This document shows positions 1 to 42,111 of a stretch of DNA of 42,111 nt, in pieces. How positions within the stretch are numbered: position 1 is the first letter of the stretch; the number at the start of each line of letters is the position of its first letter. The stretch covers positions 1-42,111 of the forward strand of contig DAIDHP010000034.1 in NCBI GenBank assembly GCA_027459625.1, read 5' to 3'. The notes below the pieces were generated by a model, which was given only the letters and a program-made list of their open reading frames with translations, ran no database searches and was not told the origin of the DNA. This DNA is from Chthonomonadales bacterium (GTDB taxonomy: Bacteria; Armatimonadota; Chthonomonadetes; Chthonomonadales; CAJBBX01). Made by a program: the position numbers and the translations under genes.

Positions 1-75
1 TGTGAACCGCCCGGTGCGGACCCGCATGCCGGGTGGTGTGGGAGGCGGGATCAGTAATGACCCCGCCTACCCGAT
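1..75 (+). mobile_element. Group II intron 3' end (domains V and VI)
   Basis: Positions 6-37 fold into a domain V hairpin. The lower helix is 9 bp (6-14 with 29-37), there is a 2-nt bulge at 27-28, the upper helix is 4 bp, and a tetraloop lies at 19-22. A C-G-C triad sits at 8-10 with a G-U wobble (9-34); CGC rather than AGC is typical of bacterial class C introns. Positions 40-72 form domain VI: GGG-A-GGCGGG pairs with CCCGCC-T-CCC, leaving A69 bulged as the branch point. The intron ends CCCGAT at 70-75, matching the AY 3' splice rule. The intron body and any reverse transcriptase lie left of the window. The 3' exon starts at 76, only 24 nt beyond the stop codon of the convergent glycosidase gene. 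The structure is read directly; the class assignment is an inference. Confidence 0.88.
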
Positions 76-3481: not shown

Positions 3482-4264
3482 CTACATTCCCATGATGTGA
3501 TATCCCGCATCCACGTAAATGACTTCACCGGTAATCCCTCGCGCCATGGGACTCAATAGGAATGTGATTACATCACCGACTTCGTCGGCGTCCACGTTTC
3601 TTCTTAGCGGAGCGTGCTCCGCCATATAGCCGAATATCGAACTGAACCCGGAAATGCCGCTGGCGGCGAGCGTTTTGATCGGACCGGCGGAAACCGCGTT
3701 GACTCTGATATTTTGCGGTCCGAGATCGTTGGCAAGATATCTCATGCTTGATTCCAAAGCCGCTTTGGCGACTCCCATCATATTATAACCGGGAACCACG
3801 CGTTCGCCACCCAAATAAGTTAGAGTAACAACACTGCCGCCACCGTTCGCTTTAAATAGGTTCTTCGCACCTGCGGTGAGAGCGACAAGCGTGTAAGCGC
3901 TGTTATCCATGGCAATTAGGAAGCCGTCCCGAGAAGTATCGACGAATTGACCTGAAAGGTCCTCGCGCTTTGCAAATGCGATTGCGTGAATCATTCCATC
4001 CAATTTGCCTTCGAAATGTTCGCCCACCTGACAATAGAGTTCATTGACGCTATCCTCCTTGGTGGCGTCACATAAAAAAATCGGGGAATTCGAAATTTCA
4101 GATGTGTCTAGAAGTTTTTGAACCTCCCCTTTTTCACGCTCGCTGTATACCGAAAACGCTAATGTCGCCCCCTCTCTCTGAAGAGATAATGCGCTATGCC
4201 ATGAGATGCTCCACTTATTACGCGTCCCGCTCACCAGGATGCGTTTTCCATCCATTATTCCCAA
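3482..4264 (-). CDS. fabI: Enoyl-[acyl-carrier-protein] reductase (NADH), FabI
   Basis: 260 residues, SDR fold. FabI reduces enoyl-ACP in the last step of each fatty-acid elongation cycle. The nucleotide-binding N-terminus (GKRILVSGTRNKWSISW) replaces the classical SDR glycine motif, as in FabI. The catalytic pair is Tyr150 in TLTYLGGE and Tyr160-x6-Lys167 (GYNMMGVAKAAL), equivalent to E. coli Tyr146, Tyr156 and Lys163. The start is most likely the TTG at 4264: AAGGAG lies 6-7 nt upstream, and the resulting N-terminus MGIMDGKRIL aligns with the usual MGxxxGKRILVTG. The ATG at 4255 is too far from the ribosome binding site. Heads a probable fabI, small membrane protein, cyclophilin operon. AT-rich sequence upstream probably holds its promoter. 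Confidence 0.95.
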   Translation of the reverse strand: MGIMDGKRILVSGTRNKWSISWHSALSLQREGATLAFSVYSEREKGEVQKLLDTSEISNSPIFLCDATKEDSVNELYCQVGEHFEGKLDGMIHAIAFAKREDLSGQFVDTSRDGFLIAMDNSAYTLVALTAGAKNLFKANGGGSVVTLTYLGGERVVPGYNMMGVAKAALESSMRYLANDLGPQNIRVNAVSAGPIKTLAASGISGFSSIFGYMAEHAPLRRNVDADEVGDVITFLLSPMARGITGEVIYVDAGYHIMGM

Positions 4265-10177: not shown

Positions 10178-11320
10178 ATGCGTTTAGTAGATAAACTGAT
10201 TTGTCGCGAGTTGATCGCACCACTCTTTAACAGCATCTTTATGTTCCTGATGCTTCTTTTCGCGTCCGCATACCTGTTTAAGCTCACGGATTTGATCACC
10301 CAAGGGGTTTCTTTCGCCACCGTACTCCGAATAGGTTTGTACAGTCTTCCCACTCTTATCACTCAGACCCTACCGATGTCAATGCTGCTTGCCGCGCTGC
10401 TTGGGTTCGGGCGGTTATCCGGCGACAGTGAGCATATCGCCTTGTTTGCAAGCGGTATCTCCTTCTTTCGCATTGCCTTGCCGGTGGCGTTTCTTGGTTT
10501 GCTTGTATCGATGATCACCATAGCATGGAATGAAACAGTTGTTCCACCGGCTACTCGAGCGTATTATGATCTCTTACAACACGCCACGGAGCATATCAAA
10601 GCGACTGATAAGCCCCTCAATTACGTAATATTAAGAGGGGACGGGCACGTGGATGAGTTTGTCGACGTGGACGGCGGGTATGATGCGAAAACTCGGAGTC
10701 TGCGACGAGTGAACATTTTGAAAATGAGTGATGATCCGCGTTCTCAGGGGCAACCGGAATTGAACCTGTATGCGGATCATGCCATCGCCAAGGACCCAAA
10801 GGGGCTGGACTGGGACTATTTTGATGTCACTGTAACTTGGTTGCGACCGGAATCGAACAAGAATCTGTATGTTTATTCGCACATGAATCATGCCACCACA
10901 AGCACATTGCCTAAGAATGTCCGATTGGGTAAGGACTTTCGCGGTATTATGGAAACCGGGGTCACTGATAATCATCGACTGACTTTCGCTCAGTTGAGAA
11001 GAAAAATCAACGAAGAGCGATCCGAGGGGAGCGTCGATACTCGTGGGGACGAAGTGGATCTGTGGGAGAAGATATCTCTTCCATTGGCGAGTTTGATCTT
11101 CGGACTGGTTGGCGCCGCTCTTGGGGTGCGTCCGCATCGCGGAAGCCGGGCGATGGGTTTTGGGATTGCGGTAAGCATTATATTTGTGTATTGGGTTGTT
11201 TATCACTGGATGTATATCTTAGGCAAGACGGGGAGCTTGCCTCCCGCCTTGGCGAGTTTTATGTCGGATATTCTTGGAATGATTGCTGCGGGAGTACTGA
11301 TCGCTAGAGCGCGGCAATAA
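10178..11320 (+). CDS. LptF/LptG family LPS export permease
   Basis: 380 residues from ATG 10178 (GGGAG 12 nt upstream); a TTG at 10166 overlaps the lptB stop. Transmembrane helices cluster at the N-terminus (about residues 8-35, 50-75, 95-115) and the C-terminus (about residues 295-375). They flank a periplasmic beta-rich domain, the layout of YjgP/YjgQ (LptF/LptG) permeases. The N-terminal RLVDKLICRELIAPLF is a typical family opening. Only one permease gene is here, whereas E. coli uses an LptF-LptG heterodimer; either the partner is elsewhere or this one acts as a homodimer. Confidence 0.88.
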   Translation: MRLVDKLICRELIAPLFNSIFMFLMLLFASAYLFKLTDLITQGVSFATVLRIGLYSLPTLITQTLPMSMLLAALLGFGRLSGDSEHIALFASGISFFRIALPVAFLGLLVSMITIAWNETVVPPATRAYYDLLQHATEHIKATDKPLNYVILRGDGHVDEFVDVDGGYDAKTRSLRRVNILKMSDDPRSQGQPELNLYADHAIAKDPKGLDWDYFDVTVTWLRPESNKNLYVYSHMNHATTSTLPKNVRLGKDFRGIMETGVTDNHRLTFAQLRRKINEERSEGSVDTRGDEVDLWEKISLPLASLIFGLVGAALGVRPHRGSRAMGFGIAVSIIFVYWVVYHWMYILGKTGSLPPALASFMSDILGMIAAGVLIARARQ

Positions 11321-19664: not shown

Positions 19665-22600
19665 TTACACGAAGGAGAGAACCAGTTTGTCACCCTCATG
19701 CATCATTAATTCGGAAGGTAGTTGAACCTCAATGCGATTTCCCTCGTTCTTAACAGCTATCCTTAGTGACTTGCCGTTGTGAACCGCCTTCGACTTGGCG
19801 GGATTGATCGGAAATGGAGCCTCAAAGGATAGCGAGCTTAGTTTCACTTTTCCCCATCTGATCTCAATGGCGTTCGTCTGGGTGCTGCCAACTCTCTTCT
19901 GTGAGAATGTCCCCCAGCCTTCGGCGATAGTGAAAGCGGCTCGGAAATCCTCTTGGTTCATTCTTGGCGCGAAGCCAAGGTGTCCTTTTGGTCCGTGATA
20001 TTCATACCCGCACGCCGCAAGGAACACCCCGTAACTCGCCATGGCGCGGGCGTAATGATCCCCGCACTCCACCTCGTTCCATGGGTTCCTACGAAGTGGG
20101 TGATAACGGTCATGAATCGCGCGGGTGACCGCAAGACCCTCTCGCACCATCCCCTCAGCTATCATGTTCCATGCGACTTCATACTCGAATCCTGTCATGC
20201 ACTCGTTGAAGTACATGGCGGACCATTCCTGGGTTGGATCATTGATGGAGGGGCGTTTTCCCATCGGGAAGGTCACCATGATCATTCCGCCCTCCCCGGG
20301 CATGGCGAACCATCTTCCGGATTTGTGCGCTCCGCGATACGGTCCCACATCCGGCGTAAAGTTGTAATCCCACAGCGACTTCAAAGCTGCGAGCGTCTTT
20401 TCCTTGCTTATCACTCTTTCCATCCCGATTTGATGCGCCCAACTCTGTCCGAAGACCTGATCGATCTCACATCCATCGTAGGAACCCACTGCCTGTGCGT
20501 GGGCGGGATCGGCGATCTGGATGAAATACTGGTACTCATCTTTCCAGAGTTGCGATTCAATGTTTGCGCTTCCTTTGGCGGCGATTTCGCCGCACTTCGC
20601 AGCGAAATCCGTATCGCCCATCTCCGTCGCCATCCTCTCACCCGCCATCAGCGCCGCCACGTACAGCGAACTGAGCCAGGGAATCTTCCCGAACCATGCG
20701 GCGTCAAGCGTATTCGCCTGAGGTCCCTCCAGTATTCCGTCCTCGTTTCCGTCCAATTGCAACAGTGGATCGAACGCCTTCTTCAGTCGCAGCCAAATGC
20801 GGCTTAGAAAGGCGTTGTCCGTGGTCATCTGATGTTCGCGATAGGCGCGGAGGATAACTCCCGCCTGCCCGTCCACAGCGAGGCTGCGGTCAAACTCCCC
20901 TCGAAAACCGATGATACCGGTTGCGAGATCGAAGGATATTCCAAGGTCGACCCTGTCCCGGAGATATCTTTCCAAATCCGGGAATAACCGCGCCACTGCG
21001 TGAGCGTAGTGCCATACATGCGTGCAGGTTCCGACGCAACAACCCACCCCCTCCCAAGCCCAGAATCTCCCGGAGCTTAATCGGTGACATGTGGATGTGG
21101 CAAGGGTGGAGGCATTGAGGAATGTGCGATCCAAAAACCAGTAAGGAAGGGTCGAATCGTACCATGTATCCCGCCACAATCGGGTTTGTTCGGTAAGGGG
21201 CTTGATATTCCGCGCGATGTGTTTCGCCGTGTCTGCGGAGGTCGGGAACCGATCGGCGTAATATCTTCCTCCGAGATCCTGCAACCCCGCCAATGTCCAG
21301 TTGGGGAAGTTCCAGCATAGGATAAATTGCGTTTCGCTTCGCTTGCCGGGCTCGATTTTGACCTTCCTTGTCAAACATCCAACCAGCTTCGCGCCGACGG
21401 GCGCTTTCCCTTCGGAGTTAGCCGCGCCAGACGTGGACGATGAGAATATCGTCTGCAAATCCGTGCTCGCGAGGTTGAGGTTGCAATCGTCTTGCGCGGT
21501 TGGATTCAATAACGCCAAGGACATAGAGCCGAAATCGTACTGGTCCTCCATTCTTCGACGGATATGCGGGGTGTCCTCGAATTCAATCTGATCGATGTCG
21601 ATATGCCCCCAAGCGTCGCTGCTGTGATCCACAATCTCCAGATGGGCGGTTTTCCCCTCAAGATCGGTCACATTCCAACTGACCCACTCCATGTAATCGC
21701 TGTTTCTGCCGGTCTGAGTTCGCACGACCTTGCCGTCCTGCACGAGATTGATACAGGTTTCGTTTGGATGATCGCCTCCGCCTATCAGAAAGCTGATGTA
21801 ATGCCGCTCTATGGTGAAATCGGGCGAAATCAGCTTGCCCTGCAATGCGTCCGTGCCGGTCCATGTGTTCACCAGCCCGTTGCCTTCGTATCCGGTAAGG
21901 TGCTGATTGGCGTCGTGGGCGCCATGCGTTGGTCCGGATCCGAACGCATCCCCCTCGGTCTTCCAGTCTCCGTAATCTGCACCCTCGAAATCATCGTAAA
22001 CGATCATGGGGCGCGGATTTACGACGGTATTCTGTTCCGTAGGCTTACCATTGCAATCGAGAATCAAAAGCCCCTCGTCCCTTTCCACTCTGTTCTCAAG
22101 TTCGCCGATCACATCCGTGCCGGTGAACAGGCTGCAAGCGTTTTGGAGCCATCCCGCAAACTCGATTTCCACGGGCTCCTTGGATTGGTTGGTAACCGTG
22201 TAATTCAGGATCGTGCCTGGAAGGCTCGACTCCTCCGTGTTAAGCGGGATGAATGGCGAGAAAGCCTCCAGGGAGACTTTTACGGGGGAATCCGGATCAT
22301 CATACTCCACCAGTCCGATCGGGTACTCCCCTCGGAAAGTGATATTTTTAAACCCGGTTTTATCCAGAGATCGAACCTGAGTCCGTTTCTTGGAGGTGAT
22401 CTTTACGGCGAAACCCTGATCCAAGGGAGAGGAGGGGACGGGTGGATTCGCATAATGAGCGTCTCCGGTGGCGTCCGGGGCGTTGAAGATATCCCACAGC
22501 CATAGCTTTCCGTCGCCGCCAAGGTACAACTGCCCGGCGCAAATCCCCCCAATTGGCATGCCTATCATATCCAGCGCCGCACCGCCATAGACCTCCGGTT

Positions 22601-24416: not shown

Positions 24417-25871
24417 CTACGCGACTCGCTCCAAACGGCGAACCTTCGCGGAGATCATCCCTGCGGCGTAGATAATCGTGGCGACGATAAGTCCGGGGTA
24501 CATGGGTTGTATTCCAAAGGGGAAGAGGGTGCTGTCGCTCATGTCGGCGTTCATGCCGTGGCGTATCCAGCCTATTCCAAGGCAAGCCGCCGCAACCCCG
24601 CTGCCTAGAAGAAGTTCAGAAAAAGAGAAATTCGCGCCGACCTTTAATTTGGGGGAGTAACCGGTAAGCACGGGATACAGCATGCCTGGCACGAAGACGG
24701 TTCCAATCGCCCACCACTGCTGCACTATCGACGGAATGTAGTAGCTTATGACAATTGCGACGCCTGCTGAGAGCAGGATGCCGATTCGCGTGTACGCAGG
24801 CACCTTTTCGTTATCCTTCTGATCCCCAATGCGCCAGAAGAAATCCCTGCCGATCGTCATCGCGCCGAGGAAGGTGTAGGAGACAACGGCGGACATCACT
24901 GTGGCGAACATCGCTACGTAGAAAATGCCTTTGACAACCGGCGGAAGACACTCTGCGAGGATGGGAAAGGCGAGGGGGATGTTTTTCTCCGAGAGGTGAG
25001 GGAAAATAGCTTTTGTGTAAAGTCCTGCGGTGGTGGTCATGAAGTCGAAAACAAACCAGCATACGATGGCGATTAGGATTCCCTTTTTGGCGATTTCGGG
25101 AGTGCGTGCAGCGTAGCATCGCTGATGGAACCCCGGATCCACCAAGGTCCAGAGTGCGATGAAAAACCAAATCAGTGTGAAGCCGAACCCCAATCCGCCG
25201 TCGAACTTTAGATGATCCGTCGGGACATGCATCATCATCCAGTTGAACCCGCCGAATCGATGAAAGATGAAAGGCAACGCCAAGGCGAACCCCCCGAACA
25301 TCAGGCAGAATTGAAAGGTGTTAATGCGCACATCGGATTGGAACCCGCCTGCGTAGACGTAGATTACGGAAAAGATGGTGCCGAAAATGAGGGCGGGCAG
25401 AAGGGGAATCCCCATGGTGATACGCAACAGTTCGCCTACCATGAGGATGTACGGCGCAGGGGTCACCATGAAGAAGGCGTAAAACGCGCCTAAAATCGCG
25501 GTTTTTTTGTCGTACTCCTTTGCAAGCTTGTCGGGGATCGTGTACAGGGAGGCTTCTCGGACGCGCTTGGCGAGGAAAAGAGCGAAAAGTAACGCGAAGA
25601 CATAATACGGCAATCCCTGTGTCGTCCAGTTCACCAGCCCATAACGATAAGTCATCTCGCCGACGCCTAGAATCCCCCCGTACCATGTCGCCACAAGGGT
25701 GGCGACGAACACGGGAAGGGCAAGGGATCGGTTGGCGATCAAATAGTCCTCCGTGGACTGTTTGCGTCGCCAGAAACCAACGATTAAAGTGAACGAAAAG
25801 TACGTCCCTAATATGATAAGATCAATCGCCGCGAAATGGGCTCTAATCATAAAATCCCCTATCAGACTCAC
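24417..25871 (-). CDS. Sodium:solute symporter (SSS family), candidate thiamine or precursor transporter
   Basis: 484 residues from a GTG that overlaps the thiN stop (GTGA); an internal ATG at 25850 is an alternative. About 13 hydrophobic helices span the protein. The signature early region FTLIVGFWRRKQSTEDYLIANRSL is the SSS consensus of a first helix followed by a DYxxAxRxL-type loop. DVRINTFQFCLMF and DPGFHQRCYAARTPEIAKKG match later SSS motifs. Symport of Na+ with an organic solute is the family role. The cotranscribed thiamine pyrophosphokinase and the upstream TPP riboswitch suggest thiamine, hydroxymethylpyrimidine or thiazole as solute, as proposed for the SSS protein ThiV; this is inference. 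Confidence 0.85.
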   Translation of the reverse strand: MSLIGDFMIRAHFAAIDLIILGTYFSFTLIVGFWRRKQSTEDYLIANRSLALPVFVATLVATWYGGILGVGEMTYRYGLVNWTTQGLPYYVFALLFALFLAKRVREASLYTIPDKLAKEYDKKTAILGAFYAFFMVTPAPYILMVGELLRITMGIPLLPALIFGTIFSVIYVYAGGFQSDVRINTFQFCLMFGGFALALPFIFHRFGGFNWMMMHVPTDHLKFDGGLGFGFTLIWFFIALWTLVDPGFHQRCYAARTPEIAKKGILIAIVCWFVFDFMTTTAGLYTKAIFPHLSEKNIPLAFPILAECLPPVVKGIFYVAMFATVMSAVVSYTFLGAMTIGRDFFWRIGDQKDNEKVPAYTRIGILLSAGVAIVISYYIPSIVQQWWAIGTVFVPGMLYPVLTGYSPKLKVGANFSFSELLLGSGVAAACLGIGWIRHGMNADMSDSTLFPFGIQPMYPGLIVATIIYAAGMISAKVRRLERVA

Positions 25872-26485
25872 GCCGCAATATGGCAGACGATTAACACTCC
25901 CGACCCTATCGATACCCTCGCCACATTGCCGGTCATGCGATTGCTCACCCCGTGCGAGGAGGGCAAAAGTGTCTCGCCTCTTATCGGCCAGCGCACTCCG
26001 TCCAACCTCACATCGGACACAGCGTCAAAAGTGATCAGCGACAGGGTGTCTCCCGGGACGCCGTGTATCTCCGCCGATTTTCGCACAGGGAACAGGGAGC
26101 AAGATTGTTCCTGAATGGATATCTCCGTCACCTTGCTGTATTTCACGAGCATGTCAATGGACACCAGGGTGTGGTCAATCCTTCCCCCCAAAGTGCCTGT
26201 CAATGTGATGTAATTCGCACCGGCGTCGAGTGCGTGTTCGATGGCCTTTTCAATATCGGACGTATCCTGATCGGGCGTGTGAACGAAACTGGATGTCGGA
26301 TACACCTCCCGAGTCGATTCCTCCATCGAGTCGAAATCGCCAAGTATCACATCGGGAGGAGGGATTTTCGGGCTGAGATTGTTCGCTGCGCCGTCCGTTG
26401 CGATGAAGAGATCATGGGTTCGAACCAATCGCAGCAGCACGGCGGTTTTAGGAGCGACCCCGTTCACTAAAATAAGGCATTTCAT
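25868..26485 (-). CDS. thiN: Thiamine pyrophosphokinase
   Basis: 205 residues from the ATG at 26485 (GGAGG 8 nt upstream). An in-frame extension to 26563 lacks family similarity. TPK transfers pyrophosphate from ATP to thiamine, giving TPP directly. Motifs are FIATDGAANNL, PDVILGDFDSM, PDQDTSDIEKAIEHAL and LTGTLGGRIDHTLVSI, all characteristic. The C-terminal beta domain ends with MTGNVARVSIGSG. It overlaps the symporter start by 4 nt. The upstream pseudopilin-like gene ends 127 nt before it, and a weak stem with a T6 run in that gap could partly terminate transcription. Confidence 0.93.
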   Translation of the reverse strand: MKCLILVNGVAPKTAVLLRLVRTHDLFIATDGAANNLSPKIPPPDVILGDFDSMEESTREVYPTSSFVHTPDQDTSDIEKAIEHALDAGANYITLTGTLGGRIDHTLVSIDMLVKYSKVTEISIQEQSCSLFPVRKSAEIHGVPGDTLSLITFDAVSDVRLDGVRWPIRGETLLPSSHGVSNRMTGNVARVSIGSGVLIVCHIAA

Positions 26486-26612
26486 TTTGATAGCCTCCAA
26501 ATCGACCGTTTTTTTGCTTGCATCTCCATATATTATGAATGTCTTTGGATGCGCTTTCATCACTCACCCGAAAAAACCCATGATTCGCGGATGAATTCAC
26601 GCAGGGGTCCGC

Positions 26613-27371
26613 CTAATCGCACTCCCAGTAATACCATTCCCCCGTGGACGGGTCCGTTTGTCCGCTCTTCTGACCCGCCGGACAGACCACCTCCTGATCA
26701 AACTGCTCGGAGCTAACCACAAATTTGGCGTGACCGTCGGCGAAAATCACGGTTCCCCCTCTTGGATGCCACTGCTGGTAATATCCGGGGGTGTAGCCGT
26801 AGATAGGATTGGTGAAGAAAGGGAACATCTCATCTCGTATGATCCTCGTATCGGAGGGATCCATGAAAGAGGCGTCCGTCACAATTCGATTGGATGTGTA
26901 ATCCGTCTCGAAACTCGAACCGGCGTTTTGAGTGGACTCCCCCGCGATGATGGAAAAGCTGCCCGAATCGAAGCGATAGCTTGATCCGTAGCACTGCCAG
27001 TAACTTGACGTGCCGGGGCACCCTCCGTCCGGCGATACCTGCGCCGGACCGCCGGTATCGTCCGGGCATCGGAAAATATCCTTGTTTTTTCCATACGGAA
27101 GGATTTCAAGCTCCACCCCCTTGTGTCCCGGCTGACCTGCGGGGGGATTGACGTCGTAGGCGTAAAATATGGGCATCACTTCGTCGTAATCCTGCACATA
27201 CATTCTCGTCTGCATGCCTATCTGCCTCCCATTGGAGATGCATGTGATCTCCCGCGCTTTTTCCCGCGCTTGGGCGAATACGGGGAACAGAATTGCAGCG
27301 AGTATCGAAATTATCGCTATTACCACGAGTAGTTCAATCAATGTAAAGGCGTTCGCCTTTTTCTCGGACAT
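26613..27371 (-). CDS. Type II secretion/pilin-like protein (prepilin N-terminus, H-X9-DG-like tail)
   Basis: 252 residues from the ATG at 27371 (AAAGGA 9 nt upstream); longer in-frame versions run into the riboswitch and are not real. The short leader KKANA precedes the prepilin peptidase site and hydrophobic helix FTLIELLVVIAIISILAAIL, with Glu5 present. FAQAREKARE and RQIGMQTRMYVQDYDEV then match DUF1559-like pseudopilins abundant in Armatimonadota and Planctomycetota. The C-terminus GTVIFADGHAKFV is the H-X9-DG-type motif. It should be assembled or anchored at the cell surface after processing. It is the first gene after a TPP riboswitch, which is unusual. Confidence 0.88.
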   Translation of the reverse strand: MSEKKANAFTLIELLVVIAIISILAAILFPVFAQAREKAREITCISNGRQIGMQTRMYVQDYDEVMPIFYAYDVNPPAGQPGHKGVELEILPYGKNKDIFRCPDDTGGPAQVSPDGGCPGTSSYWQCYGSSYRFDSGSFSIIAGESTQNAGSSFETDYTSNRIVTDASFMDPSDTRIIRDEMFPFFTNPIYGYTPGYYQQWHPRGGTVIFADGHAKFVVSSEQFDQEVVCPAGQKSGQTDPSTGEWYYWECD

Positions 27372-27432
27372 GGAAACCATCCTTTCGTTCAAGTCGGGAA
27401 CGAGGGAAGGATGCGCCACCGAGATTGCGAAT

Positions 27433-27473
27433 AAAAAAAGCCGCAACCTTCGGTGGGAGCTGAAAGTAGCGGC
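27433..27473 (-). terminator. Intrinsic terminator of the TPP riboswitch
   Basis: On the minus strand GCCGC-T-ACTTTC pairs with GAAGGT-T-GCGGC (11 bp with a U-U mismatch and one G-U pair) around a 10-nt loop. It is followed at once by TTTTTTTATT. It lies between the aptamer and the pseudopilin start, as expected for an expression platform. A separate hairpin AACAAGT/ACTTGTT (27478-27497) sits between and may be part of the antiterminator. Confidence 0.88.
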
Positions 27474-27495
27474 GTAACAAGTCTTCGTACTTGTT

Positions 27496-27587
27496 CGCTT
27501 CCCTCCGTCGGCATTACCCGTATCAGGTGTAAGGGGTTCTCCGATATTCGGAATCTCAGCAAGCCTTAAGGCCAGCACCCCCAGCGA
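27496..27587 (-). promoter_or_regulatory. TPP (THI-box) riboswitch aptamer
   Basis: On the minus strand the conserved elements occur in order: P1 5' strand CGCT, GGGGGTGC, the pyrimidine-sensing CTGAGA (27554-27559), ACCC, ACCTGAT (27532-27538), GGGTAATGCC, GGAGGGAAGCG closing P1. This is a standard thiamine pyrophosphate aptamer. With the downstream terminator it should switch off transcription when TPP is plentiful. The next genes are a pseudopilin-like gene, thiN and the symporter. Confidence 0.96.
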
Positions 27588-27595
27588 TATCATTT

Positions 27596-34968: not shown

Positions 34969-35322
34969 AAGGTGTCTCCTTTGAGAAGGCGAAGGGAATT
35001 GACGGTTGGGCGAAGTACGTACCTATTGTGTCATATTTCCCCGCAGGAGCAAAACAGACTGCCAAAAATCCAAGCGTGAAGAGGAATTGAATACTGGAAA
35101 GGCTCCTCGGTTCACTTAGTCTCTCATGCCATAAGGGATGTAAGGTTACTTTATGCCCGATCTTAGAGGCTCGGAGGCGCTATTAAATATGGCTCGAAAG
35201 GTCAGATATCGTTGGTATATTAAACCAATTTCACGGATATCTTCAGATATGGTGAGGTGGATTTCTTAGAGAGAATAACCGGAATGTAAATGTCTTTGTT
35301 GTTCAAAGCGCGGTGTTCGGCG
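34969..35322. other. 354-bp intergenic region
   Basis: Probable upstream region of the isomerase-rhaT unit. No gene, strong promoter or terminator can be supported. Confidence 0.5.
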
Positions 35323-35634
35323 TCAATGACTCCATCTCTTGAGGGATGAAAGATATGCGGAAAGGAAACATACAATAGAGACGCTTACGGCAAACGTCAG
35401 CAGCGCAACTCCCATGGATCCCCCTTTGAGATTTACGATAAATTGGGGAGCGACTAGAACAGCCATCAAAAGTAACACAACAGGAACGGCGCCGGGATGC
35501 GCCGCATTGATAATCCATCCCATCCATTTGATGTGCCTTGGCACGATCACTCGGGGGTCCGACTTGCAATAATAAACACCCCACTTTCGGTTATGCGGAT
35601 CTTTCCAGCATGTTTCTATTTCGTCTGATGTCAT
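35323..35634 (-). CDS. DUF5808-type small membrane protein
   Basis: 103 residues. The soluble N-terminal half WKDPHNRKWGVYYCKSDPR, then VIVPRHIKWMGWIINAAHPG, matches DUF5808 (core DPRxxVPKRxxxGWxxNFAHP). Two transmembrane helices follow (about residues 49-66 and 74-95). In larger proteins DUF5808 sits at the C-terminus of multi-pass proteins; here it stands alone. Function unknown. First member of the small-gene island, all minus strand. Confidence 0.7.
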   Translation of the reverse strand: MTSDEIETCWKDPHNRKWGVYYCKSDPRVIVPRHIKWMGWIINAAHPGAVPVVLLLMAVLVAPQFIVNLKGGSMGVALLTFAVSVSIVCFLSAYLSSLKRWSH

Positions 35635-35850
35635 CGTCCCGCCCTGCTTTTGGTTTTTGCCGCGAATGCAGTCTAACGATCCAATGCATAGCCACGCGTT
35701 TGAGACGAGTGGCTCGGATAACCCGATAATCGTTGTTTAATTCGAACCAAACACAAACATAAAGTACGATCAGTATGGTGACCCATCACCCCCTCGCCGT
35801 AATGGGGTGCGATAAAATTTTGGTGGTGACGGATAGGTTTAGCCGGGCAA
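35635..35850. other. 216-bp intergenic region
   Basis: Contains a hairpin, CACCCC with GGGGTG, near 35784-35809, followed by AAAATTTT. No gene is seen. Confidence 0.3.
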
Positions 35851-36495
35851 TTAATCCTGCCTGTCGGGATTTTCGGTGCTTCTTTGCTGCCACCACTGCA
35901 TAAATTCATCAACGCTTCGCACCTGAGCATCAATCACAGCTTCATACACGTGGACCGATAGCATCGTCCTGCGATACTCCGGTAGCGAATAAATAGCCCG
36001 CTTCACTTGAAGGATGCGAAAGCGCACATAATCGGTTAGCGCGACGCTCCAGCGTTGGCAGTTCGGGCAGTGCTTGGCAAACTCTCCAGGGGGGGCCGTC
36101 CAAAGGTCTAACTTCCATATGATCGCTTGACTGCTTTTCTTTGGATTACTTACCCTTATCCCCCAATAAAGACCTTCGGCGGGTCCCGTACCAATTCCAG
36201 GCTCACGTCGAGCATCCATGCAGACAAGTCGCCATGCCCAGTCTGTTGCCGCCAATCGATTACCCAAGTCCCAATGCGCATTCCAGTCGAGTTGCTCTCG
36301 CTCGCGCTCGAAATCCAAATCTCGCCAAGTCATGGTTTTCATCACGTATGATCCGACCGGATAGAAACCTTTCGCGAGAATAATCTTCCTCAAGCCGGAA
36401 TCTTCAAGCATTTGGTCTGCTTCGGTGCGCAGCTCCGCCTCACGTTCAAGCAGCTCCCTCTTCTCATCGGTGGCCACGGCGTCCTTATCAATCAA
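35851..36495 (-). CDS. Nucleotidyltransferase-like hypothetical protein
   Basis: 214 residues from TTG 36495, which has AAGGA 8 nt upstream. The segment KGFYPVGSYVMKTMTWRDLD fits the GS-x(8-9)-W-x-D-x-D pattern of minimal nucleotidyltransferases, seen in many uncharacterised accessory proteins. The N-terminus is charged and helical (EKRELLEREAELRTEADQML). The C-terminal half has conserved aromatics (WKLDLWTAPP, SVDEFMQWWQQR). It could be part of a toxin-antitoxin or mobile-gene set by analogy, but no partner is evident. Function unproven. Confidence 0.65.
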   Translation of the reverse strand: MIDKDAVATDEKRELLEREAELRTEADQMLEDSGLRKIILAKGFYPVGSYVMKTMTWRDLDFEREREQLDWNAHWDLGNRLAATDWAWRLVCMDARREPGIGTGPAEGLYWGIRVSNPKKSSQAIIWKLDLWTAPPGEFAKHCPNCQRWSVALTDYVRFRILQVKRAIYSLPEYRRTMLSVHVYEAVIDAQVRSVDEFMQWWQQRSTENPDRQD

Positions 36496-36643
36496 AGCGA
36501 TGATCCTTTTCTTCCCGTATAATCAGAAATCTTCGGGTTGCCAACCACCTGCGTAAGCGATTTTCAACGCCCCTTGGAAATGTATAGGTAACATCAGCCT
36601 GCCGTATTCGTCAGCGAATCAAGGGACATTCCTTCCTACCAAT

Positions 36644-37081
36644 TTACCGTAATCGATCTCGAAGGTTACCGAAGAACGAAGAGGAGTGCATGTGTCGAAC
36701 CATCGCAGCCCACTTATCTTCGGCTTTGACATTTTTTTTAAGGCGGGTTTCCTCTTGCTTCATGAGCTCCAAGACTCTGGTGTCTTCATCCTCGTATAAC
36801 CAGTATCCATGCTGATTTTCACAAAACTCCATTTCAAGATCATAGAGCCTGTATTTGAATTTCCTCAAAATCGCATCACACTCGGGGCATTTTGCCGCAG
36901 TGGGCGTGGAACTGAAAATCAGCGTACCCTTGTCGTGTTCACCGAAGTCGAAGACCTCATCTTCCAATTCGTCAAGTTCCTGATGCTCTAGCCACATGCC
37001 TTTGCAGGCCTCGCAGAAATTAACATTGATCCGGTGCCTCGTCTTTGGCGTCATCTCAATGTTGCATTGTGGGCATTTCAT
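36644..37081 (-). CDS. zf-TFIIB-type zinc-ribbon protein
   Basis: 145 residues from the ATG at 37081 (GGAGG 5 nt upstream); longer starts at 37093 and 37153 exist. The N-terminus MKCPQCNIEMTPKTRHRI, then NFCEACKGMWLEHQELDEL, is the zf-TFIIB (double CxxC) fold common in bacterial small proteins. A second zinc ribbon appears at KCPECDAILRKFKYRLYDLE, then FCENQHGYWLYEDED, so this is a tandem zinc-ribbon protein. Function unknown; binding of nucleic acid or metal is likely. It ends within a region upstream of which repeat copy 1 lies. Confidence 0.8.
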   Translation of the reverse strand: MKCPQCNIEMTPKTRHRINVNFCEACKGMWLEHQELDELEDEVFDFGEHDKGTLIFSSTPTAAKCPECDAILRKFKYRLYDLEMEFCENQHGYWLYEDEDTRVLELMKQEETRLKKNVKAEDKWAAMVRHMHSSSFFGNLRDRLR

Positions 37082-37140
37082 GCTTTCCTCCATATAAAGT
37101 ATTTCTCTCTCAGATTCCAACCATCCACAGCTGAGCAATT

Positions 37141-37229
37141 CCGACCGGCGCATGGCTCCGGAAGCCTGGAATTATTGTAACATACGAATCATCGTTAAGA
37201 TCCAGGAACTATCGGCGTTGGCTCCAGCG
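37141..37229 (-). repeat. Interspersed repeat, copy 1
   Basis: This 89-nt unit shares the core (AATTATTG, ACATACGAATCATC, and GGCGTTGGCTCC ends) with two further copies at 37458-37524 and 37872-37962. Its edge starts with CCGACCGGC like copy 3. It lies 60 nt upstream of the zinc-ribbon start, on its 5' side. Strand is assigned as that of the neighbouring genes. Confidence 0.75.
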
Positions 37230-37232
37230 CGG

Positions 37233-37484
37233 TTAGGCGATTTTTGTAGCGGCAATCGCCGTAACAGGGAATGCAAAATGTATCTTCCCTCCGTTGAGAT
37301 ATGCGCCGACTCCCAGATCATCACGTCCCAAATCATCACGGAAAATCCGGCGTATGCGTTCGTCGTCTACCGGATTCGGGAATGACCCCGCAAGCAGACG
37401 CTCCAACTCCATCTCCAGCTTATTGGTCTCAATCCGCAGGTCAGCGAGCGGATACCCAAGCTTGAAATTATTGCAACATACGAA
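37233..37484 (-). pseudogene. Orphan reading frame without start codon (gene remnant)
   Basis: 83 codons read without a stop on the minus strand, ending TAA at 37233-37235. The composition is protein-like: LGYPLADLRIETNKLEMELE, then FPNPVDDERIRRIFRDDLG and GVGAYLNGGKIHFAFP. The frame opens right after a TGA inside repeat copy 2, with no ATG, GTG or TTG before about residue 25. This looks like a truncated gene whose 5' end was replaced by the repeat. I do not recognise the family. Confidence 0.5.
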
Positions 37485-37524
37485 TCATCCATAAGTTCAA
37501 GAGACTCTCGGTGTTGGATCCACC
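37458..37524 (-). repeat. Interspersed repeat, copy 2
   Basis: About 83% identical to copy 3 over 65 nt by eye, from AAGCTTG to TTGGATCCA, including a shared 17-nt run CATAAGTTCAAGAGACT. It lies 7 nt beyond the 3' end of the frameshifted holin-like gene and overlaps the 5' end of the orphan reading frame. Confidence 0.8.
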
Positions 37525-37530
37525 TTGGTA

Positions 37531-37799
37531 TTAGGCGTCATGGCTTGGTTTATCTTTGGTCCAACCTGCTATCCGGTTGTAGAGCCAGGCGAAGATCGCA
37601 CCGCCAATCAAGGCGTCAAAAAACCCATAAACCAACCCTATCACACTGCCGAGCGGAGAAATGGTATAACCTCGATACACCTCGCCAATGAGCGTAGGGC
37701 TTCCCGTGGAGCCTTCGAATGCGATAATCCACCAAGTCAGTAAAACAGTCCGACTCCCCAAAAGACGCCGCAAGTTAGTGTGAATGATTTGATGTTCAT
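37531..37799 (-). pseudogene. Holin-like small membrane protein, frameshifted
   Basis: The frame 37531-37773 reads LLTWWIIAFEGSTGSPTLIG, then YRGYTISPLGSVIGLVYGFF and IGGAIFAWLYNRI, a pattern of small 'bacteriophage holin'-named membrane proteins. Its natural N-terminus, MNIKSFTLTCGVFWGVGLF, lies in another frame from ATG 37799 (GGAG 10 nt upstream). Adding one base to the AAAA at 37742-37745 (TTTT on the coding strand) joins both into one protein of about 89 residues. It is therefore either a disrupted gene or a homopolymer error. Confidence 0.7.
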
Positions 37800-37871
37800 T
37801 TTATGTTCACTCCATTTCACGTCGTTTATGCTTATGAAGTAAGAAGCCTAAAGATTCAAAACTGAGACGCG

Positions 37872-37962
37872 CCGACCGGCAAACGGCTCGGCAAGCTTGG
37901 AATTATTGGTATATACGGATTGTCCATAAGTTCAAGAGACTGTTGGCGTTGGCTCCAAAGCG
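37872..37962 (-). repeat. Interspersed repeat, copy 3
   Basis: A 91-nt unit starting CCGACCGGC and ending GGCTCCAAAGCG, matching copy 1 at its left edge and copy 2 in its core. It lies 73 nt upstream of the holin-like start, on its 5' side, and 17 nt past the end of the next gene. Confidence 0.8.
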
Positions 37963-37978
37963 TTGTGATATTTTCATT

Positions 37979-38332
37979 TCACCTTCCGAGTAATATCGCC
38001 AAACACACGCCGAGGTTCACCACGCCGATGCCGAGAAGGAGTGTGGTAAAGACAACATTGAACTGCTTGCTCCAACTCGGACAACGGCCAAGCAGACGGC
38101 ACGATGCGGGCTTTCCCCCGCCGCCAACGATTCCCTTCCTCCAGCCATAAACCTTCAAGAGCCCGAGCGTAGTGAATACCACTCCCACGAACGCATTCGG
38201 CATCCAATTTAACACCTTCTCGACGTTCGCCGACATGTGAATATGAGGCAGCCAACCGGCGGGAATCAAAAGAGCCATAAGTGGCAACATGCACAAAATG
38301 ATGAGCAATAATCTGATGGTGTCTCGTTTCAT
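37979..38332 (-). CDS. Small membrane protein with Gly/Cys-rich cytoplasmic loop
   Basis: 117 residues from the ATG at 38332; an in-frame start at 38368 lies next to the rhamnosidase stop. Three hydrophobic segments are visible: DTIRLLLIILCMLPLMALLI at the N-terminus, NAFVGVVFTTLGLLKVYGW in the middle and FNVVFTTLLLGIGVVNLGVC at the end. The loop KGIVGGGGKPASCRLLGRCP is distinctive and recalls uncharacterised proteins of several phyla, but I cannot assign a family. The ribosome binding site is weak (GAGAGAG 10 nt upstream). Confidence 0.6.
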   Translation of the reverse strand: MKRDTIRLLLIILCMLPLMALLIPAGWLPHIHMSANVEKVLNWMPNAFVGVVFTTLGLLKVYGWRKGIVGGGGKPASCRLLGRCPSWSKQFNVVFTTLLLGIGVVNLGVCLAILLGR

Positions 38333-38368
38333 GCGTGTTTGTCTCTCTCGTCGCGCTAGTATCTGCAT

Positions 38369-40726
38369 CTATCTCCCTATCGGGAGTATCACTGACCAAT
38401 CGCCGGATACCTTTTCCACCCTCTCAACCCTCCCTTCGCTCCCAAACCTTTTGGGGATATGGAGATATATGGGGACGGGGGTTTCCAAGTGGTAGTGGAT
38501 GCCGTCGGGTTCACGGGTCCATCTTATCTTAACGACACCCTTTTCGCCAAGCAAAGGGATCGCTCCGTTCGCCTCTTTAAGCGATCCGGGATACAAGCTC
38601 AAAACAAAATTGCGCTCGCCCAAGTCATAACGCGGTTGAATTCCCAGAACGTAACGCGACAGCTGCCAAGTCGGACATCCGGACCACTGATGGCAGTGAC
38701 TCCATCGGGTGTCGAAAACTTCAAGCCATGTCGTGCGGTCGTCGCCTAGCATCCATCCCCAACATTTGCGATACTGATCCAGCGCGAAGTTCATCTCCCC
38801 GTGTTCGATCAGAACGGGCAAGGCGTAGTGTCCGAAATAGGGGGTAATGAGCATGGGGTTGTTCGCCCCCGGATCGCTCAATCTGGGAGCGTTAGGATTG
38901 TTGGGAAAGCATTTAAGCATATGATTCATGATGTACATGACGCAGGCTTTCTGATCCTCTCCGTGGAAGAAACCCATTTTCAGCCCGAGAACCGCGCGAT
39001 GATATCCTATGCGTTGCCATGCGTCACCGCCTTTTTTGAATTCATCGGAGTAATACCGCCCAATGATGGCTGTCATTTGATCCGCCAAGGCTTGAAAATG
39101 AGGTGCATCGCTTTTTTTACCGATTGCGTCACACCAGTGAACCATATCGCGAAGGGCGGCGAGATAATACAAATTGACCGCCATGTCGGATGGACCCGGG
39201 TTCCGCATGTAGCCCCAATCCACAAACCCCCAACCCAGGGAGTCGCTAACTCCTCCGTCGGTCGTCTGATTTGCAAACGCCTCCATGTTTTTCACGGCTG
39301 CGGGGTATAGCTCCTCCAACAATGAGCGGTCTCCGGTCAATTCCCAATAATGGACGCATGCCGTGACCCACTGCGCCGCGTAAGTGGATAGATAAGCAGC
39401 ACCACCTGGAGAGAGCCCAGCAACAAGACCGTCGGAGCGCGCGCATTCGGCGGATTGCACCAGACCTCGTTTCAGTAAGCGCATATCGTTGTAAGCTACC
39501 GAGGAGATATCCATACCAACCGATACCACGTCGCCGGTCCACTCCCCGCGCTCCCTGGTGGGATTATCGATCAATGCGTCCTCGCTGCATGCGCGGAGCG
39601 TCGAAACTCCGACCGACCATATTTTATTCAGCAGCGGGTCGTTGGTATGAAAGGAGCCTTGCGGCTCGCCGTAATACGTTCGCTCGACGATCTCCTCCTT
39701 GATGAAATGGACCTGGTTCGGGGGAGCGTAGACGTGAATTTCCATGAATCGACCGCCCTTGGGAGTGAGAGGAAAGAACTCCTGTTCTCCCCCCCGAGCG
39801 ACGTAATGGTCCAGATTGCAGGATTCCCCTCCCGATAGCGTGATCCAGGGGCATACCCTGCCTCCTCGCAATTCCTCGGAATAGGCGAATTCCACAACCG
39901 CGCCCGAAGGCAAGTCCAAGACGAACCTTGGGCGCATCAAGCGGACCCTGCCAAAGTCGTACCGCCTCCATACGCCGTCGGGCGGTGTTTTTTTGGGAGT
40001 TAGGTTGGCGAGGTAAAAGCGCGCCGCAGGATCGTCCTTTTCATAGCCGAACTCATTGACAAACTCCCCGGAGGCGATGGGCTTTATTTGATGAACTATG
40101 GAGAGAGTATTCGCCGTGGTAAGCGCTTCCAACTTGCCGATATTTGGATTCACGGGGACCGGGGAATTCCATCCGGAATCGTCGAAATCATCCTCCTTCC
40201 AGCCCGCGGGAATCTGACGCGTGTCGCACCATTCGATAAATCCGAGTTCGGGATTGATTCGCCGGACCTGGGAATCATATCCGTTCAACCGGATGCATTT
40301 CCAAGTTACCGGGATTTCAACGCCGTCTTGCATCACGACGCAGTGGAGAAAGGGTCTCGGATTATCAAGGATCCTCGTCACCACTCCAATCTGATGCACC
40401 TCTATCGCCAAAACGTGGCGCCCGGCGGAGATATGGAGATGGTAAGTCTGATATTCGGGATAGGCGGCGGGAAATCTCGCTGGACCTTCGCAAAAGTAAT
40501 GACCGTCCATCCACCCCACATACCACGATGCACCTATCAGCCGGATGTCGCAATTCTGTTCCGTCTTGAGATCGAAATGACCTCGAAATGCCACATAGTA
40601 ATCCGGCTCTTCATTGTTTACGTTCCGATACCACTTAAATTGTTGGATGGGTTGAAAGGTGGCGTTGGCGAATGCGGAAACGGCAAGGCTCAACAAGACG
40701 AATAACAGCAGCTCGGCGAAATGCAT
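38369..40726 (-). CDS. Exported GH78 alpha-L-rhamnosidase
   Basis: 785 residues from the ATG at 40726, giving a clean signal peptide MHFAELLLFVLLSLAVSAFA; starts at 40759 and 40810 would add a charged N-terminal extension. The domain order fits GH78: an N-terminal jelly-roll (QPIQQFKWYRNVNNEEPDYY and ASWYVGWMDGHYFCEGPARF), a beta-sandwich and the (alpha/alpha)6 catalytic barrel. DALIDNPTRERGEWTGDV is the signature region with the general acid. TTWLEVFDTRWSHCHQWSGC, then PTWQLSRYVLGI, is a second conserved segment. The enzyme removes terminal rhamnose from plant pectins or bacterial glycans outside the inner membrane. It is near a RhaT symporter, and upstream of it is the H-X9-DG gene (74-nt gap). 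Confidence 0.85.
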   Translation of the reverse strand: MHFAELLLFVLLSLAVSAFANATFQPIQQFKWYRNVNNEEPDYYVAFRGHFDLKTEQNCDIRLIGASWYVGWMDGHYFCEGPARFPAAYPEYQTYHLHISAGRHVLAIEVHQIGVVTRILDNPRPFLHCVVMQDGVEIPVTWKCIRLNGYDSQVRRINPELGFIEWCDTRQIPAGWKEDDFDDSGWNSPVPVNPNIGKLEALTTANTLSIVHQIKPIASGEFVNEFGYEKDDPAARFYLANLTPKKTPPDGVWRRYDFGRVRLMRPRFVLDLPSGAVVEFAYSEELRGGRVCPWITLSGGESCNLDHYVARGGEQEFFPLTPKGGRFMEIHVYAPPNQVHFIKEEIVERTYYGEPQGSFHTNDPLLNKIWSVGVSTLRACSEDALIDNPTRERGEWTGDVVSVGMDISSVAYNDMRLLKRGLVQSAECARSDGLVAGLSPGGAAYLSTYAAQWVTACVHYWELTGDRSLLEELYPAAVKNMEAFANQTTDGGVSDSLGWGFVDWGYMRNPGPSDMAVNLYYLAALRDMVHWCDAIGKKSDAPHFQALADQMTAIIGRYYSDEFKKGGDAWQRIGYHRAVLGLKMGFFHGEDQKACVMYIMNHMLKCFPNNPNAPRLSDPGANNPMLITPYFGHYALPVLIEHGEMNFALDQYRKCWGWMLGDDRTTWLEVFDTRWSHCHQWSGCPTWQLSRYVLGIQPRYDLGERNFVLSLYPGSLKEANGAIPLLGEKGVVKIRWTREPDGIHYHLETPVPIYLHIPKRFGSEGRVERVEKVSGDWSVILPIGR

Positions 40727-40799
40727 TCCGTTAATCTTCCACTCCTTTGAGGTTACCATCCGGATACGTACTCCAGTTATCACCCGAATAATGACGTAT

Positions 40800-41699
40800 C
40801 TATCGCACATTCAACAATTGATTCCAGTCAGAATGATTAACTGCCGCCACATGACCATCTAGAAATCCCACATACCTTGAGCCGTCTCTTCTCGCATGAG
40901 GTTCATATATCACCGGAGTATTCATGGGGAGCTTAATTGAATTAAGATTTTGTTTTGTAATGTCGGCGTTTAGAGTGTAAGGGGTGTGGGTTCCGGGCAA
41001 ATAAAATACGTCGGAGTGCTTTATATAAGGATATAGAGCCTTGACGAAAACGGAATAATCCGTCATCGGGGGCAGGGTCATCTTATTATCCTGAGCGTAC
41101 ATCATCAAAGCTATGAGAATCTGATTCAGGTTCGATTTGGAAATCTCGTTATTGTACTTGCCATTGGTTGTGAGCAGCGTGTAGAGATCAAATGGGGATA
41201 TGTTCAGGATATCATCCGCCGATTGTAAATTGAGCAGGCAGAGATGCAATTCGGAATCCGGGGTTACCGGTTTATTCATCTCCTCAGCGGAACTCCCTTT
41301 TACAATCGACGAATACGCGTTTTGCAAAGAATAGGCGATCAAATAAGACGTTCCGTTTAGCGTTGTAGTTCGTCCCTGTGTGAAATACAGGTGACTCTTA
41401 TCGGTGGCTGTTCCGCTCGAACCTTCCGATGTGCGCCCGTGATTTGATGAGAGATTGAAACTGCTCCAGAGAATGTCCAGATCCTTTAGCTTCATGGTTA
41501 AGGGGGCGATCCGTCCCGTGAAGAGAGCCATCTCGGCGAGACTGGAACCACGCTGGTTTGGAGACGTGGAAATATCGAAGGATTGGGAAGCAATGGGTTT
41601 CGTAGCTAGCGTATTTGCCGCGTTTGCTGGTGGGTTTTGCGCCGCCAATACAGGCAGTGCGTAAGACATCAGCAATAGAGAAAGGAACGATCTATTCAT
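40800..41699 (-). CDS. Exported H-X9-DG-type protein without a pilin helix
   Basis: 299 residues from the ATG at 41699 (AAAGGA 9 nt upstream). It has a Sec signal (MNRSFLSLLLMSYALPVLAA) instead of a prepilin leader. The C-terminal part NLNQILIALMMYAQDNKMTL, then PYIKHSDVFYLPGTHTPYTL, and the end GSRYVGFLDGHVAAVNHSDW carry the DUF1559-like pilin body and an H-x-DG terminal motif. The middle is rich in Ser, Thr and Asn. It may be a released or surface-anchored relative of pseudopilins. The sequence ACGAAAGGATG upstream of the start recurs before the pseudopilin gene at 27371. It probably lies in one transcript with the GH78 gene. Confidence 0.7.
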   Translation of the reverse strand: MNRSFLSLLLMSYALPVLAAQNPPANAANTLATKPIASQSFDISTSPNQRGSSLAEMALFTGRIAPLTMKLKDLDILWSSFNLSSNHGRTSEGSSGTATDKSHLYFTQGRTTTLNGTSYLIAYSLQNAYSSIVKGSSAEEMNKPVTPDSELHLCLLNLQSADDILNISPFDLYTLLTTNGKYNNEISKSNLNQILIALMMYAQDNKMTLPPMTDYSVFVKALYPYIKHSDVFYLPGTHTPYTLNADITKQNLNSIKLPMNTPVIYEPHARRDGSRYVGFLDGHVAAVNHSDWNQLLNVR

Positions 41700-42111
41700 G
41701 GCAGGCATCCTTTCGTTTTGCAATTGACTGACGAGAGTGAACTACCCGTAGGAATAAGAGCATTTGTTTCAGGCGTCAGATTCATGCCATGTGATTTTAG
41801 GATTTTCAATTTGCCTGTAAGCGTGCAATATGATTTTTCAATGATATCTTACCATAATGTCTGATATTTGTCGATTCTCGTACATGGATCAATCCGTAGG
41901 GATTTTATTAACGGATTGGCGCGGTTGATGGGAGAAACTCATAGATGGATGGCTCCTTTTTATCAGGCAATTCGCCCTCCGGAAGTGTATGCGAGCGTCG
42001 GTTCAAGAGTTTCCAACGCTGCATGAAATATCTCTCATTATTTTCATCAACACCCATTGACAAGCTCTTTCAAAAGTGTTATTCTGTCAGAGACACTACA
42101 AATCCGCCGCG
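41700..42111. other. 412-bp right-end intergenic region
   Basis: No coding frame is supported. It holds the upstream region of the H-X9-DG gene and a rightward promoter (listed separately). Confidence 0.5.
42057..42085 (+). promoter_or_regulatory. Near-consensus sigma-70 promoter pointing off the right edge
   Basis: A perfect TTGACA (42057-42062), a 17-nt spacer and TATTCT (42080-42085). A rightward gene probably begins just beyond the window. Confidence 0.65.

Follow-up and report, generated by a model that had tools for sequence, protein, structure and literature searches.

Results

Genes and repeats at the locus

The window analysed here is a 42,111-nucleotide stretch from one contig of a Chthonomonadales bacterium, whose draft genome comprises 4.55 Mb in 114 contigs and is 96.55% complete. 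Between positions 36640 and 38370 of the window, the minus strand reads in the order gene A, repeat 3, gene B, repeat 2, gene X, repeat 1 and gene C (Table 1). No Pfam or NCBIfam family matched gene A. Gene B resembles the holin_4 family NF037947 (E 5.5e-18), with a score of 65.2 bits that falls below the curated cut-off of 70, and its homologues align in two frames that meet near 37740; this gene is probably frame-broken, or the break is an assembly error. At E <=0.01, 14 of the 290 other phylum genomes contain a homologue of gene B (8 of these at E <=2.3e-14), and none of the 11 other members of the family does. The last ~70 codons, which are all that is left of gene X, match residues 199-256 of a 257-residue methyltransferase from genome G265 (46.6% identity, E 1.8e-12), which itself matches Methyltransf_11 with E 1.9e-24. 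Thus, both genes lying between repeats are decayed, gene X to a stump and gene B by its broken frame. The initial annotation had placed the repeats next to small or broken genes, and the gene boundaries bear this out. As far as family searches show, the genes preceding the repeats (A, B and the methyltransferase remnant) appear mutually unrelated.

Table 1. Features of the repeat locus, in minus-strand order, and the segment missing from the sister genome G001.
Feature	Position	Strand	Description
Gene A	37979..38368	-	129-aa orphan protein; in G001 at 89%
Repeat copy 3	37854..37962	-	Full length; core onset 22 nt past gene A stop
Gene B	37531..37802	-	Small membrane protein, holin_4-like; frame apparently broken near 37740
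Repeat copy 2	37458..37530	-	Minus-strand 3' side cut off; core onset 9 nt past gene B stop
Gene X	37233..37454	-	C-terminal stump of SAM methyltransferase; first ~180-200 codons missing
Repeat copy 1	37123..37232	-	Full length; core onset 7 nt past stop of methyltransferase remnant (gene X)
Gene C	36644..37102	-	Zinc-ribbon protein 3' of copy 1; PF13453, E 3e-13; 99% in G001
Segment absent from G001	37220..37950		~0.73 kb, both genes between repeats; exact join ambiguous within repeat

Two further features were observed elsewhere on the contig. A TPP riboswitch (27483-27592, minus strand, 74 bits) lies directly ahead of the gene at 26613-27593, whose product we take to carry a prepilin-type N-terminal motif; the protein encoded next (25868-26563) is presumably a thiamine pyrophosphokinase. 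A TPP riboswitch is an unexpected neighbour for a pilin-like gene. The end of a group II intron (5-75, plus strand; Rfam RF00029, 45 bits) lies right at the contig boundary.

Three homologous spacers in one orientation

The three same-orientation copies described initially were found in their places, all within 0.84 kb. In every copy the similarity sets in 7-22 nt beyond the stop codon of a minus-strand gene, and the conserved part reads GGA.... In a single ungapped register of 109 nt, copies 1 and 3 share 79 positions, copies 1 and 2 share 67, and copies 2 and 3 share 71. Within the 66-nt core, identities are 53/66 (copies 1 and 2), 54/66 (copies 2 and 3) and 50/66 (copies 1 and 3), the second of these amounting to 82%, close to the 83% first given for that pair. 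The homology of copy 2 is limited to this core of ~66 nt and is truncated where the methyltransferase remnant begins; its flank beyond 37458 is not repeat-like, with 307 and 845 of 1000 shuffles aligning equally well. For the last 39 nt of copies 1 and 3, none of 1000 shuffles reached the quality of the real alignment. A CCGACCGGC edge had been ascribed to two of the copies; it is indeed present in copies 1 and 3 (37141-37149 and 37872-37880) but is not the true end, as their similarity extends ~18 nt past it. The longest exact run common to copies 1 and 3 is 13 nt, followed by runs of 11 and 9 nt. Judged by these alignments, copies 1, 2 and 3 are homologous spacers of ~110-120 nt.

Coding and regulatory readings of the spacers

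The minus-strand frame ending in a Gln codon and TAA, already noted in the initial annotation, occurs in all three copies and also in the copy carried by the sister genome G001, and an open plus-strand frame (WNYCNIRII...) runs through copies 1, 3 and the G001 copy. Shared frames would be expected if one gene had been duplicated and the 3' ends had decayed, an origin that the initial annotation had itself set against its own reading. However, the mismatches show no preference for any codon register (8, 10 and 12 between copies 1 and 3), so that the Gln-TAA frame shows no sign of coding, the similarity continues beyond the stop codon, and the preceding genes are unrelated by family searches; descent from one duplicated gene is therefore very doubtful. 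The repeat-frame peptide also resembled a G001 protein encoded near 10450, but the DNA match there is 19 nt long (E 0.2) and runs in the reverse direction, so this likeness was discarded.

The spacers could also be a conserved non-coding element needed for expression, such as a terminator, a processing site or the promoter of the next gene, that was copied together with the genes. Their constant position just past a stop codon and ahead of the next same-strand gene would suit such a role, as would an 11-nt run, CAATAATTCCA, common to copies 1 and 3. Searches for the corresponding signals speak against it: Rfam gave no match to the repeat at the gathering threshold or at E <=1, promoter- and terminator-like sites were near or below their numbers in shuffled sequence (3 vs 2.4 and 1 vs 2.3), and RNAalifold recovered hardly any common structure (8 pairs, -4.8 kcal/mol). 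This candidate regulatory repeat is, moreover, confined to one locus, and we consider a regulatory function rather unlikely. A stem with seemingly compensatory changes (CCTGGA/TCCAGG vs CTTGAA/TTCAAG) was rejected; it is broken in G001.

Distribution of the repeat

The initial annotation had likened the repeat to a MITE and named a lack of further copies in the genome as an argument against its reading. When copy 1 was compared by BLAST with its own 4.55-Mb genome, copies 2 and 3 were recovered at E 6.5e-12 each, the next of the 14 matches listed had E 0.48, and no fourth copy was found. At E 0.01, four of 61 genomes (this one and its relatives) matched: the present genome, G001 with 93% over 101 nt, and two, G003 and G010, in which the matches cover only 25-28 nt. 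A profile built from four copies matched 13 of 291 phylum genomes at E 0.1, of which two, belonging to the same genus, scored strongly (>=93.6 bits): this genome with three copies and G001 with one. The other 11 stayed at or below 17.9 bits, leaving no strong match in the 289 further genomes. An exact degenerate pattern had its sole match in the genome collection in the MAG MAS4.bin79, on a contig 37,317 bases long; viral contigs gave none, and for plasmids and phages a distant blastn search with 37100-37990 was negative. Judging from titles and the opening lines of abstracts, no publication on integrons, attC sites, cassettes or repeats in Armatimonadetes/Armatimonadota is evidently about this repeat.

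MITE and REP elements are short non-coding repeats located at gene ends, a description that fits the three homologous non-coding copies seen here. Insertion of such a non-autonomous mobile element behind three genes would nevertheless be hard to reconcile with the data: the copy ends hold no inverted pair, in keeping with the lack of clear terminal inverted repeats noted initially, dispersed copies are missing, the repeat being restricted to a single locus, and G001 has a hybrid copy instead of an empty site. We regard this origin as highly improbable, and the idea of a dispersed MITE-like element is left without support.

A single hybrid repeat in the sister genome

Contig C246 of G001 aligns to window positions 35310-37225 (95.4%) and 37854-42109 (86.2%), with a single repeat shared by both alignments. 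This repeat is a hybrid, matching the flank of copy 3 on one side (59/65) and copy 1 on the other (139/145). With one join allowed, 214 of 229 positions are identical, compared with 172 if the whole is assigned to copy 1 and 149 if it is assigned to copy 3. The best join falls at 37939-37958 in copy 3, an interval containing TGGAGCCAACGCC (37945-37957), the 13-nt run that is the longest exact match of copies 1 and 3. A single hybrid repeat where the interval is missing is the outcome expected of recombination between direct repeats. The join lies near one end of the repeat, a position that fits direct-repeat and site-specific recombination alike and by itself cannot tell one from the other. 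Since both genomes are draft assemblies, collapse or misjoining at the repeats is conceivable.

The one copy in G001 has copy 1 as its orthologue (98/109); their difference of 10% is counted over 109 nt that take in some of the exchanged end. Copies 1 and 3 diverge by 28% and the orthologous flanks by about 5% (~1-7% in most 150-nt bins adjoining the repeat), which suggests that the copies predate the split of the two genomes. This favours loss of the segment in G001 over its gain here, and we infer that G001 probably lost it, the direction being read from divergence alone with a single related genome carrying the locus; alternatively, this genome may have acquired foreign copies. The impression that a block of high identity ends exactly at the repeat did not hold, as identity returns to 95-98% across gene A, with low values in the large gene (38369-40810).

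Gene content also varies close by. At window positions 35091-35310, G001 carries ~2.7 kb against 0.2 kb here, comprising a pair of nucleotidyltransferase (PF01909/PF18765) and HEPN (PF05168) genes, a DUF6193 protein and a decayed paralogue of gene A. The NTP_transf_2/HEPN gene pair, intact in G001 (L060 8427-9147), is represented in the window by decayed fragments at 35087-35276. The gene A paralogue (L060 10470-10607, minus strand) has one in-frame TGA and 57% identity over residues 78-123. The right end of the window (41749-42109) matches two places on the G001 contig.

Comparison with integron cassettes

Integron attC arrays, including those without an integrase (CALIN), consist of gene-plus-repeat units that share one orientation and differ from relative to relative. 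The locus shares this arrangement: unrelated small genes are each trailed by a homologous site, and whole gene-plus-site units differ between relatives, G001 lacking two of them. The cassette-like part of the initial reading is upheld to this extent, although such variation is not specific to integrons. A decayed CALIN, in which the repeats would be worn attC sites and gene B and the methyltransferase gene cassettes, might further draw on the plus-strand end of copy 1, GTTAGGC, and on genes B and X both stopping with GCC TAA at the repeat edge. Integron integrases above the cut-off were found in 10 of the 291 phylum genomes.

The diagnostic features of attC are lacking; the initial annotation, too, had seen no clear attC site. 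At the R' end (GTTRRRY), the GTTAGGC of copy 1 is the only fit, the plus-strand sequences of copy 2 (TATTAGGC) and copy 3 (GTTGTGA) departing from the motif. None of the three copies combines an R'' motif (RYYYAAC) pairing with R' and one long bottom-strand hairpin: two scans for a RYYYAAC...GTTRRRY pair with a single paired hairpin each retained 0 of 3. The plus-strand 5' ends are TCCGACC in copy 1 and GCCGACC in copy 3. The ends of copy 1 carry GGCTCC in direct, not inverted, orientation, and the repeats fold no better than shuffled sequences (z -1.1 to +0.7 in 8 folds). No integrase above the cut-off was present in this draft genome (best 76.4 bits vs 265) or in the 11 other members of the family.

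The motif-plus-hairpin scans covered the window, the G001 contig piece, eight integrase-bearing stretches from the phylum and a class 1 integron as control, in which the strict scan found the attC of the second cassette and the relaxed scan that of the first, neither finding both. In the window, the relaxed scan gave two stray matches far from the repeats (3641-3704 and 20437-20555). No clear attC array emerged in the eight integrase-bearing stretches (L078-L085, L086-L093) from these scans or, for four of them, a repeat search. Taken as a whole, the evidence makes a CALIN quite improbable. An ancient, worn-out integron may be envisaged, since integrases occur in the phylum, though in none of this family.

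Discussion

The reading that we favour, with a probability of roughly 0.6, is that the copies are homologous intergenic spacers stemming from an old local duplication and serve as substrates for general recombination in a hotspot of gene turnover. They would separate co-directional, unrelated small genes, in the series A - spacer 3 - B - spacer 2 - methyltransferase stump - spacer 1 - C, and as direct repeats they would offer substrates for homologous or short-homology recombination, by which intervening genes could be removed or added. The state of G001 would then represent a deletion (or an insertion) between direct repeats that left a hybrid copy, presumably with no dedicated recombinase involved. 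The stump of gene X starts at the truncation point of repeat 2, and the 5' portion of the methyltransferase gene and the 3' end of copy 2 may therefore have been lost in a single deletion. What counts against this explanation is that simple tandem duplication accounts only in part for three homologous spacers between unrelated genes, no duplicated gene being left between them.

Known deletions between direct repeats, whether by homologous or short-homology recombination, likewise show a hybrid repeat at the join, a join at the longest exact match and missing intervening genes. The locus differs from them in that its copies, which are 28% apart, are old and lie between unrelated genes.

A more exotic proposal is that the spacer is the recombination site of an undescribed cassette system lacking an integrase. 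This site would be unlike attC and would act at its minus-strand 5' edge (TGGAGCCAACGCC), allowing unrelated small genes to be inserted or lost unit by unit behind gene A with the help of a Xer protein or another host recombinase. We hold this to be a very long shot. If more relatives were found to have exchanged units at one fixed nucleotide, the locus could then be considered a candidate non-integron cassette system.

Local gene turnover through old spacers remains our preferred account; the locus looks like ordinary turnover and not like a new mobile element. The repeat itself is without match in the collections searched, and its behaviour needs no new mechanism. The comparison with the sister genome would provide a before-and-after picture of the turnover of small orphan genes at a single intergenic hotspot by way of short, old direct repeats.
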